Below, piece after piece: positions 4,420-61,745 of a stretch of DNA of 64,000 bases (within the stretch, counting starts at the first letter, position 1; each line of letters opens with the position of its first letter). The stretch spans positions 124,001 through 188,000 of the forward strand of contig JACRIK010000001.1 of assembly GCA_016235865.1 (NCBI GenBank). The letters run 5' to 3'. The position numbers and the translations under genes were made by a program. The stretch is from Planctomycetota bacterium (GTDB taxonomy: Bacteria > Planctomycetota > MHYJ01 > JACQXL01). Below the pieces are notes generated by a model. The model worked only from the letters and a program-made list of their open reading frames with translations. It made no database searches and was not told the DNA's origin.

Positions 4420-5499
4420 ATGAAGAAAATATTCATAACCATAGGTATTGTTGTCGTTGTTTCCGTGCTGACGGCCATAATATTCAGCGGCAAGACCGCC
4501 GGATACTGGATTTATACGGGCTATAAGCTAAGCGGCGCGTCAAAACATGAGGAAGCCCTGCAGGCCTTTGACAAAGCCCTGAAACTTGACCCGGAAAATG
4601 CCACGGCCTGGCAACTCGAGGGCTCGGCTTTGCAGTTCCTGGGCAGATACGAGGAGTCGATAAAGGCGCTGAACCAGGCCATGAAATTTTCTTCTGACGA
4701 TACCATTGATCCCTACCGTATCCGGGGAATACAGATTTCCATAATCGAATCCCTCAATAAATTAGGCCGGTATGAAGAGGCCATTGCTATCTGCGACCAG
4801 CTGATAAAAATCAGCAAAGATTACTATTACTATGAAAACAAGCAGGCATTGTTACAGAAGGCGTTTGCCTTGGGCAAATTAAAACGTTATGACGAAGCGA
4901 TAGACATCTATACGGCGAACTACCTCGGTTACCAGGACTCCGAGACAAAATATAATCGCGCCCGCATTTATTCCCAGAAACATCAGAAAACCGAAGCGCT
5001 GGGCGACTTGAAAGATGCTATCAGTATCAGCAGTAACTACAAAAATAAGGCCATCAATGACATGGACTTTGAATGGCTCTGGGAGGATGCGGATTTCAAG
5101 CAAATCACGGCCAGAACCAATCACGAATGGCGTCAGTATGGGAATCAGTTATCCGGTCACGGCCAATATGGCGAGGCGCTAAAGGCATATGACCAAGCCA
5201 TCGAGCTTAATAGCCAGGAATTTTATGTTTGGGAAGATAAGGGGTATGCCTGCCTGAAACTGGCCCGGTATGACCAGGCCGCGCAGGCATACGAAAAGGC
5301 GTTGAAACTTAATCCCAATTCATTTACCGGTTGGTACAATATAGCCTGCGCCTATTCGCTCAAACAGGATAAGGAACATGCGCTGAGCAATCTGAGGCGG
5401 GCAGTGGCATTACAGCCGCAGAGCAAGGCCGGCGCCAGAAAAGACCAGGATTTTAAATGGCTCTGGAACGATGCGGAGTTCAAGCGGATAACCCGATAA
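4420..5499 (+). CDS. Membrane-anchored TPR protein
   Basis: One N-terminal hydrophobic helix (about residues 4-26) anchors the protein, leaving the rest probably periplasmic. It is built of tetratricopeptide repeats: EEALQAFDKALKLDPENATAW, YEESIKALNQAMK, YEEAIAICDQLIK, YGEALKAYDQAIELNSQEF and YDQAAQAYEKALKLNPNSF. It contains two copies of a TPR-capping motif, DxDFEWLWEDADFKQITA near 210-225 and DQDFKWLWNDAEFKRITR at the C-terminus, suggesting an internal duplication. TPR proteins are scaffolds; no catalytic domain is present. No clear Shine-Dalgarno precedes the ATG. Confidence 0.85.
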   Translation: MKKIFITIGIVVVVSVLTAIIFSGKTAGYWIYTGYKLSGASKHEEALQAFDKALKLDPENATAWQLEGSALQFLGRYEESIKALNQAMKFSSDDTIDPYRIRGIQISIIESLNKLGRYEEAIAICDQLIKISKDYYYYENKQALLQKAFALGKLKRYDEAIDIYTANYLGYQDSETKYNRARIYSQKHQKTEALGDLKDAISISSNYKNKAINDMDFEWLWEDADFKQITARTNHEWRQYGNQLSGHGQYGEALKAYDQAIELNSQEFYVWEDKGYACLKLARYDQAAQAYEKALKLNPNSFTGWYNIACAYSLKQDKEHALSNLRRAVALQPQSKAGARKDQDFKWLWNDAEFKRITR

Positions 5500-5614
5500 T
5501 TCGGCATACTTTGGTTTTACACTTACCTTAATAAGCAAAGTAATCCACACCCGGACTATCTGTATTATTCCGTAGTAGTATCCCTTGTCTTCATCTCCCA
5601 GCCCTCTAATCCCA

Positions 5615-6670
5615 ATAGGGCGGATAGATGATTCGCATCCCTACGCTGAATGGCGCTATCGGGTATGTTCCCTGGCCTGGCCAAGGATACGATTAAATCT
5701 GATTGCCTCTTACCTCTAATCCACCTATCCCAGTTCTATAATTCAATAGGGTATATCCAATACTAAGACCTCCCCGGTATGATTTAGCATCAGGGTATGT
5801 ATTCTTAAATAATAGGGTATGTACGGCATAAATATGGTGTATGGCCTCTGAAACACTATGGTATGTAAGGTAAGGGTATGGTATATGCCTGATAGGGGTA
5901 TAGGGTAGTCCTGGTGTATCCATAGCCATATAGTCCCGGCCGTAGCTCATACCATACTCTGCCCCATATGGTATTACGGTCTGCGTCAAGGGGTGCCAGA
6001 GGGTATGGTGGAGGGGGGTAGGAGGGGGGGTGGGGGGTACTACCCCCTGACGCTTGGGATAATAGGGTGTATCGCTAGGTGTATTACCATAACCGGCTGG
6101 GAGTATTATGGTTAGGCGTAGGGGCTGATACTCCATGTCTCAGGGGGTATCAGAACTTGCCGCTGGGGATACTACCATCCTGGTTAGGGGATAATACCTC
6201 ATCCGGCTACCCCTGATACCCTGTCTGGCAAGGGATAATAGGACTTGTGGTTGGCCATAATACCACGTATGGCCAGAGGTATTACCCTGTGCGGCCGGAG
6301 CTATATGGCTGTGGAGCCATAGGGCCGGGGGAGTAGGGGTATATAGCATACCATCTTTACACAGAGAGTATATACTATGCCTGATAGGATAATGGTCTAT
6401 GAGAGCTATCAGACGGGGTAGGCAGGACACATTATATACCCTGTTTCTTTATATAGGATACTCACTATAGGCATAGATACGCCGGGTGATGGTTTAAGGT
6501 ATGCCCGGTTTAGACACTAGAGCAGCGGGGTATTCTTTAGAGGTAACATGGGTAGAGAACATTCATAGTCCCCATATTCACACAGGGATATAGGCCATAA
6601 GGACAGATTGCCATATCGGTGGGATTATTCATACTCCCCTTAAGCAGTATGTGGCGCACCCCTGTATTAC
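5615..6670. repeat. Degenerate array in a 22-bp register (about 48 units)
   Basis: This gene-free stretch can be cut into consecutive 22-bp units with no indel that keep a common pattern: purine/G-rich positions 1-4, a TA-rich core at 5-9 (usually GTATR, ATAAT or ATACY) and GC-rich remainder. For example, the units from 5747 each carry GGTAT or a variant at the same place, and the units from 6121 share a GGGG-ATA-ACC-GGCT layout. Individual units are strongly diverged. Because 22 is not a multiple of 3, the register argues against coding, and the open frames on the minus strand look like repeat artefacts. A second array with the same period lies at 27371-27832. Confidence 0.65.
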
Positions 6671-6771
6671 TATCTGGCGGGAGAGGAAGGCACGTCCCGA
6701 CATTCGCCGGGATAAGTGGCGGTCCCTACGGGACTCCCTGCGGGTCGTAACGACCAGAGGTTTAACAGCCA

Positions 6772-6849
6772 CTAAAATGCATTCGGGATGAGTTCAATCT
6801 CCGGTTTATCCTTGGTCATCAGGATTGAGACTACGTCAAACCGGCAGGG
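6772..6849 (-). pseudogene. 3' fragment of a second yraN gene
   Basis: Read on the minus strand, this stretch encodes PCRFDVVSILMTKDKP followed by EIELIPNAF and a stop. That is nearly identical to the C-terminus of the intact YraN protein encoded at 10838 (PCRFDVVSILMKKDKP, EIEFIPNAF). Only about 25 codons remain and no upstream yraN sequence precedes them; the frame is cut where the GGDEF gene ends at 6858. It is therefore a remnant of a duplication or recombination event. Confidence 0.85.
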
Positions 6850-6857
6850 CATCGGTC

Positions 6858-7769
6858 TCAGTAGGAGCATTCAAAATGGGCGCTGGGGGAATACCGGGCC
6901 CGGGATTGTTTGTCCGCGTACATCAGTTTGTCAACCCGGGCGATCAGGGTTTTCATGGTATCATCCGGCTGAGCCATGCTCAGGCCCATGGATAATCCAA
7001 TCCGAACCATATCCGGCCCGAGCTGGACCGGGATTCCCTCCACGGCCCGGCGGATATGCGTTTTTATGTTATGCAGGTCGCTTTCCGATTCGGACGATGA
7101 AATGAGCAGGAATTCATCGCCGCCGAACCGGCTTAAATGGTCGGTCACCCGGGTATTCCGGTAAAGCACCGAGGCCGTTTCCTTAAGCACCTTGTCGCCG
7201 GCTGAATGGCCCCGGGTGTCATTAATATGCTTCAGGTCGTCAACGTCGATAAAGAGCACCCCGAAATTATAGCCGTAACTGCGCAGGGAATTCAGCTTGA
7301 TGCCCAGGTTAATCTCGCCGTACCGGCGGTTGCCCACATTGGTCAGATGGTCCATAAGCGAGAGCCGTTTTAGTTGTTCCATTTTTCTCATATGCTCGAA
7401 ATTAGTGATATTATCCCAAAAGACCTCAGCCGTTCCAACGGTTTGGTTGTTACAATCTTTAAGAGTGCTGGTGTAGGTATAGACGGCAATCGGATGTCCG
7501 TCTTTGCGGAAATAAATGGCCTCCTCCCGGACAGGCAGGTCCGTGGAGATTGCCCGGAAAACAGGATATTGCGCCTTATAACTATTCTGGGGCAGTTCTT
7601 TTATCAGGATATCCCGGGAGTATTTGCCCAGCACCTCCGAATGGGTATAGCCCATCAGCCGTTCCGCGCCCTGGTTCCAATAGGTGATTTTCCCCTCGGG
7701 GTTGGTCAGGTACACGCCCATACAGAAATTATCCACGATAACCTTAAACAGGTCGTTGGTAATAAACAT
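6858..7769 (-). CDS. PAS-GGDEF diguanylate cyclase
   Basis: It makes c-di-GMP from two GTP. An N-terminal PAS domain (about residues 8-125: NFCMGVYLTNPEGKITYWNQGAERLMGYTHSEVLG in pieces, then the PAC segment) precedes a GGDEF domain with SRFGGDEFLLI. The product-inhibition site RVTD (RxxD) lies exactly five residues before GGDEF, so feedback inhibition is expected. No membrane segment is visible, so the protein is cytosolic. A GGAG Shine-Dalgarno precedes the ATG. It is second in a unit with the 55-aa gene at 7825, downstream of a sigma-54-type promoter and a structured leader. The stop abuts the yraN remnant. Confidence 0.93.
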   Translation of the reverse strand: MFITNDLFKVIVDNFCMGVYLTNPEGKITYWNQGAERLMGYTHSEVLGKYSRDILIKELPQNSYKAQYPVFRAISTDLPVREEAIYFRKDGHPIAVYTYTSTLKDCNNQTVGTAEVFWDNITNFEHMRKMEQLKRLSLMDHLTNVGNRRYGEINLGIKLNSLRSYGYNFGVLFIDVDDLKHINDTRGHSAGDKVLKETASVLYRNTRVTDHLSRFGGDEFLLISSSESESDLHNIKTHIRRAVEGIPVQLGPDMVRIGLSMGLSMAQPDDTMKTLIARVDKLMYADKQSRARYSPSAHFECSY

Positions 7770-7824
7770 ATCCCGCTCCTTCCATAGGTTCTGATTTGGA
7801 GTTCATCCTGGTTTGGCCTCTGTC

Positions 7825-7992
7825 TTAAGAAGCCAGCGGATTTACCAGCAGTTTGCCCTGGTCCGGCGCGCCGGGTCCGGGCATTTGCTTGGTCTCAGGC
7901 AGGTCTATCTCAATAATCAGTTTCGAGCGGCTTCTATCGACATAAACCAGGGTATCCTCGGTCAGTTGCAGTTTCTTTTCATCATTTTCCAT
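7825..7992 (-). CDS. Small 55-aa protein upstream of the diguanylate cyclase
   Basis: Not recognised. A very strong Shine-Dalgarno (AAAAGGAGGTGCAG) stands right before the ATG at 7992. The product begins MENDEKKLQLTEDTLVYVD and has a basic-hydrophobic core (RSRSKLIIEIDLPETKQ) and a Pro/Gly-rich tail ending NPLAS. It has no signal peptide or membrane helix. It is followed after 55 nt by the PAS-GGDEF gene on the same strand, so it is likely co-transcribed and may be a partner or regulator of the cyclase. The RBS quality and the ordinary codon usage argue that it is real despite its size. Confidence 0.7.
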   Translation of the reverse strand: MENDEKKLQLTEDTLVYVDRSRSKLIIEIDLPETKQMPGPGAPDQGKLLVNPLAS

Positions 7993-8091
7993 TCTGCACC
8001 TCCTTTTCCAATAAGTGAAATTACCCCGCCGTGATTAAAGTAAGTTCGAAAGCCAGCATTTTGACGAAGTTTGCAATCCCCATCCCCCGGC

Positions 8092-27300: not shown

Positions 27301-27370
27301 GAAATTCGTATGTGTCCCCAGATTACGCTTTTTCAATCTTGGCCCCAGAGTGCATACATTCCATTCCTTA

Positions 27371-27700
27371 CATCGTTACTATCCAATCTTTATATCGTCA
27401 GCATCTAACATTTATATCGTTACCACCTAATTTTTACATCGTTACCATCAAACTTCTACATTGTCACCATCCAATTCTTACGGAGTGGCCATCAAACTTC
27501 TACATCTTCACCATCTAACATTTATATCGCTACCATTTAATTTTTACGTCGTTACCATCAAACCTCTACATGGTCACCATCCAATATTTACGGGGTGGCC
27601 ATCAAATCATTAGCTGGTTACTGTCCAATATTTACAGGGTTGCTATCAAATATTTAAATGGTTACCATCTAATTCCTACGGAGGCGCTATTAACCCTAAG
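27371..27700. repeat. Tandem array of fifteen 22-bp units
   Basis: Fifteen consecutive units of exactly 22 bp, with no indel, share the core GTTACCATCNAA followed by an AT-rich TTTA end. Units differ by 2-9 bases, and similar ones recur every fifth unit: the blocks starting at 27415 and 27525 match unit by unit (B, C, D, E), giving a 110-bp higher-order period. The same 22-bp register appears to continue, more diverged, to about 27832, where units acquire GGGTAT as in the array at 5615-6670. Confidence 0.88.
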
Positions 27701-27831
27701 AAGCGACACTATCCTGGGTTATTCCAGTAGGGGGGATACCCTACCCCCCACCGGCTAAGGATTGACCATAGTGTAACCCTAATATTATCAATATGTTAAA
27801 ATTAGGGTATCATGAAAATACCTGTTGAAAC

Positions 27832-27898: not shown

Positions 27899-28171
27899 AT
27901 GGCACGAAAACCGTCTTTTATCAGTGTTAACCCCGAGGAGATTGAGCAGGTCCGGCGTTTCTTAAATGCTTCCTTATACTGCGACCGTAAAGCAAGGAAA
28001 CTTAAGGGGCATCGCCGTCGCCATCGGGCACAGATAGTGTATTTTTCATTATTGGGCCGGACCGTTTCCTGGATTGCCCATGAATTCAAGGTCAGCCAAC
28101 AAACCGTCTGGAAATGGCGCCAGATATATAAGCAGCAGGGAATTGAAGGATTAAAGGGCCGGCATAATTAG
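27899..28171 (+). CDS. Short HTH protein, N-terminal part of an IS630-like transposase
   Basis: The 90 residues match the layout of the DNA-binding N-terminus of IS630/homeodomain-like transposases: EEIEQVRRFLNAS, a basic RKLKGHRRRHRAQIVYF stretch, then VSWIAHEFKVSQQTVWKWRQIYKQQGIEGLKGR. No DDE catalytic domain follows; a TAG ends the frame after GRHN. It is either a truncated transposase or a domesticated DNA-binding protein. The ATG has no obvious Shine-Dalgarno. A 12-bp inverted repeat and the 22-bp array lie directly upstream, and a minus-strand gene fragment directly downstream. Confidence 0.7.
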   Translation: MARKPSFISVNPEEIEQVRRFLNASLYCDRKARKLKGHRRRHRAQIVYFSLLGRTVSWIAHEFKVSQQTVWKWRQIYKQQGIEGLKGRHN

Positions 28172-61195: not shown

Positions 61196-61556
61196 TGTAA
61201 TATCAGTGCCGGGCGGGCCGGGCCTGCCCGGATGAATGGACCCAACTGGATTCCTGCTTTCGCTAACGCGGTCTCAGTAGAGTTCGCAGGAATGACAGAT
61301 GGTGTTAAAATCGGTGCAAGCCCAACCGCACGCCTACTGCGCTTGACACAGCGGACGCGCCGCGACTTACCCCACGATAAGCCCTTGAATAGGGCAGTAT
61401 TCCCGCCAGAGGCGGGTCTAACTCGCTGTAACGAGTAAACTCTAACAGCGAGTAAGAGGGATGGTTTTATGTTCGCGCAAGATTGCAGTTTCAATAGCGC
61501 AAGCCACAAGAGGTATACCGGTCACGTTCCTTAGTTTTCGGGCTGAAACCCGTTGG

Positions 61557-61745
61557 TTTCGGCTCAGGAATCATGAGTTTCGGCTCGGGAATCATGAGTT
61601 TCGGCTTGGGAATCGTGAGTCTCGGCTCGGGAATCGTGAGTTTCGGCTCGGGAATCATGAGTTTCGACTCGGGAATCATGAGTTTCAGCTCGGGAATCAT
61701 GAGTTTCGGCTCGGGAATCATGAGTTTCGGCTCGAGAATCATGGT
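61557..61745. repeat. Tandem array of nine 21-bp units
   Basis: Nine head-to-tail units of TTTCGGCTCGGGAATCATGAG or one- to two-base variants, exactly 21 bp each. Both strands are open through it (heptapeptides RLGNHEF and MIPEPKL), a trivial result of 21 being a multiple of 3. No start signals support coding. Confidence 0.9.

Follow-up and report, generated by a model that had tools for sequence, protein, structure and literature searches.

Arrays of contiguous 22-bp units form a dispersed class of chromosomal elements that is restricted to one bacterial order. The observations made on the class are a fixed period, units private to each locus, a phase that is kept, whole units gained or lost, in many arrays a palindrome, and a polarity toward an orphan gene, here called gene A. 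The window, that is, the whole stretch of 64,000 nucleotides analysed here, contains two such elements (family 1 and family 2, Table 1), the first of which had been noticed earlier as a kilobase of DNA in a strict 22-bp register.

Table 1 Features of the window (positions counted from its first letter).
Feature	Positions	Strand	Remarks
TPR protein	4420..5499	+	upstream neighbour of family 1 array
22-bp-register array, family 1	5560..6680	.	33-48 degenerate units; stand-alone, gene A absent
Left arm of 24-position inverted repeat spanning the array centre	5919..5942	+	by-eye reading; family 1 alignment columns 34-57 vs 430-453
Palindrome GGGGGGTACTACCCCC	6032..6047	.	middle of family 1 array; conserved
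Right arm of the 24-position inverted repeat	6292..6315	+	by-eye reading of family 1 alignment
PAS-GGDEF protein	6858..7769	-	downstream neighbour of family 1 array, convergent
Second 22-bp-register element, family 2	27327..27758	+	array ~27355-27690, cleaner than the first
Terminal palindrome of family 2, GGGGGGATACCCTACCCCCC	27730..27749	.	
90-aa helix-turn-helix protein	27899..28171	+	directly after family 2 palindrome; HTH_28/HTH_23

The 22-bp register in the window

Autocorrelation of positions 5615-6670, compared with 1000 dinucleotide shuffles, gave z = 10.1 at lag 22, followed by 8.6 (lag 44), 9.2 (66), 9.8 (88), 7.2 (110) and 7.0 (132), while at lags outside this series z never rose above about 2.9 and the shuffle maximum at any lag was 4.5. 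The register described earlier is therefore real, and a 22-state phase model run over 5560-6680 found its phase unbroken. The number of units, put at about 48 in the preliminary description, holds as an upper figure only: it falls between 33 and 48 depending on the chosen end points, and the signal peaks at about 5740-6450 and fades toward both ends. The unit itself is highly degenerate (4.3 bits over 22 columns, with R-T-A as its chief conserved part), adjacent units are about 0.40 identical, and Tandem Repeats Finder left the array at 5615-6670 undetected. No gene-sized open reading frame with support lies inside the array, which is thus gene-free as stated. We rejected a protein-coding repeat, since the period is not a multiple of 3 and the array lacks a supported gene, and likewise a CRISPR array, since the units are contiguous and degenerate and there are no near-identical repeats separated by unique spacers; both exclusions had been made before and agree with the data. 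Elsewhere in the window, a 21-bp tandem repeat (61556-61743, 9 copies, 92% match) has a period that is a multiple of 3 and falls outside the 22-bp class.

DNA searches recovered homologues of family 1 at two further places in its own genome, G000:C1:91900-92670 (77%) and G000:C14:51789-52288 (84%), and one in another family of the same order, G007:C54 (73% over 351 bp). The preliminary description had named absence of the register from syntenic relatives that retain the flanking genes as evidence against it. This objection does not apply, as the G007 homologue shows the array in another family and a second relative, G005, has an array too, though the synteny with G005 is only suggestive, because GGDEF genes are numerous. 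There, a convergent PAS-GGDEF homologue (35% identity) comes after an array and gene A, in the same order as at the window locus. A six-frame profile search found no gene A in the 64,000 nucleotides, and, judged from the gene order in G005, the window locus may have lost it.

Distribution and turnover of the arrays

The 2.67-Mb genome of this groundwater planctomycete was sampled in twenty 20-kb stretches (400 kb) picked by position alone; in all, about 740 kb of it was covered. The 400-kb sample contained 17 arrays of period 22; multiples of 3 left aside, the remaining periods between 15 and 40 were not represented, and the same detector returned no array from 400 kb of shuffled sequence. The resulting density, one array per 24 kb, extrapolates from this sample to about 110 genome-wide. 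Both gene A and arrays are present in G000, G003, G005, G007, G008 and the JACQXL genome, and the sampled DNA of relatives without gene A (G001, G004, G006 and G024, about 173 kb) yielded no array where about 7 would be expected at the density of the window's own genome. The shuffle and period tests exclude chance as the source of the arrays. Bacteria do carry occasional minisatellites, but an account by chance or by decay of ordinary minisatellites is hardly credible in the face of a z of about 10, a period of 22 that stands alone in 400 kb, and the absence of arrays from shuffles and from some 170 kb of gene-A-free relatives.

Individual arrays comprise about 9-35 units, and the consensus of these units is private to each array, being unrelated between arrays except in close copies. 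In 51 of 53 arrays the second half continues the phase of the first. Alignments of related copies contain 16 gaps of 14 bp or more, and 12 of these measure 22 or 44 bp, a count in which pairs within a family are not independent; smaller gaps also exist, many of them as compensating pairs that resemble alignment noise and some of them probably real. The central proposal of the preliminary description, conserved spacing with freely changing sequence, is thus strongly supported and extends genome-wide, with unrelated units, kept phase and larger indels mostly of 22 or 44 bp. The mean identity of neighbouring units over the arrays is 0.50-0.64, and unit identity drops slowly with distance, from 0.64 to 0.57 across 8 units. 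The GG, CC, GC and CG steps of the units concentrate at an 11-bp spacing (z 8.4, on a measure whose low frequencies are inflated by smooth composition alone), which would fit one contact per helical turn and is suggestive only.

Units private to a locus, whole-unit indels and an array that begins at a palindrome are also what fixed-size amplification would produce, if a polymerase or recombination added 22-bp units from the palindrome in a telomerase-like manner, templated by the local sequence. We regard this as very improbable, given that no reverse transcriptase or template gene was noticed near the arrays and that unit identity declines so slowly with distance.

Gene A, the palindrome and neighbouring genes

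Gene A is the orphan gene that stands downstream of two homologues of family 1, the C14 copy and the one in G007. The family has 18 members in the window's own genome and about 40 matches, some partial, in G005; its profile is present in 6 of 294 relatives, all of one order, and the named relatives are groundwater Planctomycetota MAGs. There was no convincing match in Pfam, NCBIfam or PHROGs, no sequence match in the PDB, and no homologue in phages, plasmids or viral contigs. AlphaFold gave a confident model (mean pLDDT 87), with which a Foldseek search returned nothing at E < 0.001 in PDB or BFVD. With a median pI of 9.2 the proteins of the family are basic; the residues invariant among them (W, I, G, G, G and L) carry no catalytic signature and suggest a structural rather than catalytic product.

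Arrays close to this gene take up a strict position relative to it. Within 3 kb of gene A in G000 and G005, 22 arrays lie upstream, none downstream and one between two gene A copies; the stretches from G005 covered about 6 kb upstream and about 3 kb downstream, so that only the 3-kb count is fair. An array occurs within 3 kb upstream at 11 of 17 and 11 of 20 gene A loci, where about 1 in 8 would be expected at one array per 24 kb. The distance from the array end to the start codon is 54-240 bp at several loci; at others a trypsin-like protease, a sigma-factor-like gene or small genes stand in between. Most arrays have no gene A nearby. We also considered a unit code specific to each gene A protein and found no support for it: paralogues whose relative alignment scores are near 0.8 are accompanied by arrays that cannot be aligned, so that resemblance between gene A proteins is not mirrored in their arrays.

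The surroundings of the arrays provided several further observations. Genes for trypsin-like proteases with signal-like N termini separate the array from gene A at L046 (4224-5096), L018, L045, L087, L094, L096 and L098. In four G005 loci trypsin and gene A share one frame; the idea of a fusion was dropped, because the linkers resemble read-through intergenic sequence, and we do not take these loci as evidence of a fused protein. The gene 3' of gene A encodes 10-residue fibre-like repeats of the AVTTDKI type and a conserved C-terminal part (L039 6875-7864; L086 7007-8104; L046 and others), with weak tail-fibre similarity only. Sigma-factor-like and anti-sigma-like genes adjoin the gene A loci L041, L044, L047, L048 and L084. 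A third orphan family of about 140 aa, starting with [A/S]YKSFKGKW or similar, is found beside arrays (L052 4648-5082; L019 ~374-793; L053 ~6720-6950), and its L052 copy has no Pfam match. Small helix-turn-helix genes adjoin stand-alone arrays as well (L109 ~7729-8010; L120 5440-5883), and genes of this kind may be a second type linked to arrays.

The palindrome within the window array, which the preliminary description does not mention, belongs to a class with at least 4 G, a TA-containing centre and at least 4 C. Such palindromes are carried by 30 of 59 arrays, half of the arrays lacking one at the pattern used. Up to 130 bp from an array their density is 3.74 per kb, against 0.024 per kb elsewhere, about 150-fold with overlapping matches counted alike. 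By hand count, 15 arrays have both a palindrome and gene A, and in 13 of them the palindrome is on the side of the gene. In a blind test, the exact sequence GGGGTANTACCCC was sought in 59 genomes and was found at six sites in the window's own genome, two in G003 and one in each of four other genomes. All three of the previously unseen sites (both of those in G003 and one of the six in the window's own genome) adjoin a 22-bp array, and none of the four sites in gene-A-free genomes is near one. Promoter-like sequences beside the palindrome are no commoner than in shuffled flanks, though single loci look promoter-like.

The 22-bp step and known repeat systems

An RNA with repeated small hairpins had been offered as one possible basis of the register, and some observations on family 1 speak for it. 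Its window array is more stable when folded than shuffles that preserve the register (z by strand, -6.2 and -3.7), as is the G007 homologue (-5.6 and -6.1), and its inverted repeat, as read by eye, has one mismatch in the window copy and, between copies, a few both-sided changes but also breaks. Averaged over 59 arrays, the folding excess is about -1.2 on both strands. Hairpins as a general feature did not stand: family 2 shows no excess (z +0.5 and -0.5), no general covariation links unit positions at any spacing, and the RNAalifold covariation term of family 1 is unfavourable (+2.4 kcal/mol). Hairpins within each unit were discarded as a candidate when the apparent covariation in array L117 was traced to linked unit subtypes. 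The excess, present in some families, is of similar size on the two strands and is thus not specific to RNA. Closing stems flanking the arrays did not rise above swapped flanks except in two related arrays, there was no Rfam match at the gathering threshold, and the window array has no terminator and no promoter excess. A structured non-coding RNA, in which the transcript of an array would form a series of hairpins or one long closed helix, thus appears improbable. Intrinsic curvature did not depart from column-order permutations either (mean z 0.06 with a wedge model and -0.24 with a roll/tilt model).

This leaves two candidates, a nucleoprotein platform read in steps of two turns and a selfish element that carries a satellite and whose amplification fixes the 22 bp. 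According to the latter, the arrays would be MITE-like elements spread by a predicted mobilising enzyme, with gene A cassettes as larger members and the period as a by-product of amplification. In its favour, similar copies with defined edges recur as families at scattered sites. A DNA search with the family 2 array recovered four more copies in its own genome (87-91%); the five copies are 85-92% alike and have a common left boundary, and other families have 2-4. The palindrome marks one element end, and stand-alone arrays are scarce between divergent genes (1 of about 21, by hand count), as tolerated insertions would be. A protein with transposase-type helix-turn-helix domains follows some arrays; the gene after family 2 was duplicated along with the C30 copy but not with three other copies. 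However, inspection by eye of three array families revealed no target-site duplication or clear terminal inverted repeats, no transposase was noticed at gene A loci, and gene A has no catalytic signature. A selfish origin also leaves unexplained why one period recurs across unrelated sequences in several genomes and why the upstream polarity is strict, and we consider it somewhat unlikely.

We tentatively favour a dispersed cis-acting element whose array is a platform loaded by a protein every two helical turns. The polarity toward gene A speaks for it over the selfish element, as do the palindrome and a period that stays constant from family to family. The window region would be one copy of a dispersed cis-acting family, made of 22-bp units of about two helical turns and often ended by a palindrome. 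The reader protein would be the gene A product or a co-occurring nucleoid protein, bound once per two turns, and the palindrome may provide a site of orientation or nucleation. An array beside gene A would be its upstream control site, and stand-alone copies, the window array included, would be extra loading sites or remnants. Units would be homogenised by unequal exchange, so that the sequence drifts while the step is held, in a turnover like that of satellites. Against such a platform, reading of the spacing alone would not need one sequence tandemly repeated; since the units are tandem, some recognition of sequence within arrays, or homogenisation, must also operate. The arrays that stand without gene A, those that lack a palindrome, the unalignable arrays of similar gene A paralogues and the ordinary frequency of promoter-like sequences beside the palindrome weigh against it as well. 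The interpretation given in the preliminary description, which also offered a protein bound side by side every two helical turns, is partly supported. A system spanning the chromosomes of one bacterial order, with the expanded orphan family or a shared nucleoid protein on some 100 palindrome-capped arrays reading the two-turn step and not the sequence, for example in chromosome organisation, silencing or segregation, is rather unlikely.

If the platform is real, it would be a simple system for how phased DNA is read without sequence specificity. Even if the arrays are selfish, a 22-bp step fixed across unrelated sequences needs a mechanism new to science. In either case, a large orphan protein family has come to light, whose confidently predicted fold is unmatched in PDB or BFVD.

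Plasmid iterons and partition centromeres, such as parC of R1 and tubC, are direct repeats with a near whole-turn step that often lie beside the gene of a DNA-binding protein. The arrays resemble them as direct repeats that step near whole helical turns. Gene A, a candidate for the gene of a binding protein, lies beside part of the arrays, whose sequence does not follow its similarity. The arrays differ in their dozens to about a hundred chromosomal copies, in units private to each locus, in the many copies without a gene, and in that no Rep, ParA, ParM or TubZ partner was noticed among neighbouring open reading frames at the loci examined. With REP/BIME and MITE elements they share many dispersed non-coding copies, convergent or codirectional spacers and a palindrome. 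REPs, however, have one sequence genome-wide, whereas the arrays have only the period and the palindrome class in common, and, unlike MITEs, array copies (family 2 with its sharp left edge among them), inspected by eye in three families, show no target-site duplication or clear terminal inverted repeat. Regular spacing is also a property of CRISPRs, but the arrays are without a conserved repeat and unique spacers. A literature search with little coverage of subscription papers returned no description of a repeat class that keeps only its period with locus-private sequence, and we know of none in bacteria. Since the tested features differ from iterons, REPs, MITEs, CRISPRs and known non-coding RNAs, we regard the arrays as a new kind; proof of mobility could later place them among repeat elements.

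In eukaryotic centromeric satellites the monomer length is held, the sequence turns over quickly, and whole monomers are gained and lost. The arrays are alike in their held monomer length, changing sequence and whole-unit gain and loss, but they are bacterial, short (9-35 units) and dispersed every ~24 kb, and 22 bp is not a nucleosome length. Were the platform reading true, they would also be a model in which to ask how satellite-like DNA keeps a constant monomer length, and a prokaryotic parallel to satellite DNA.
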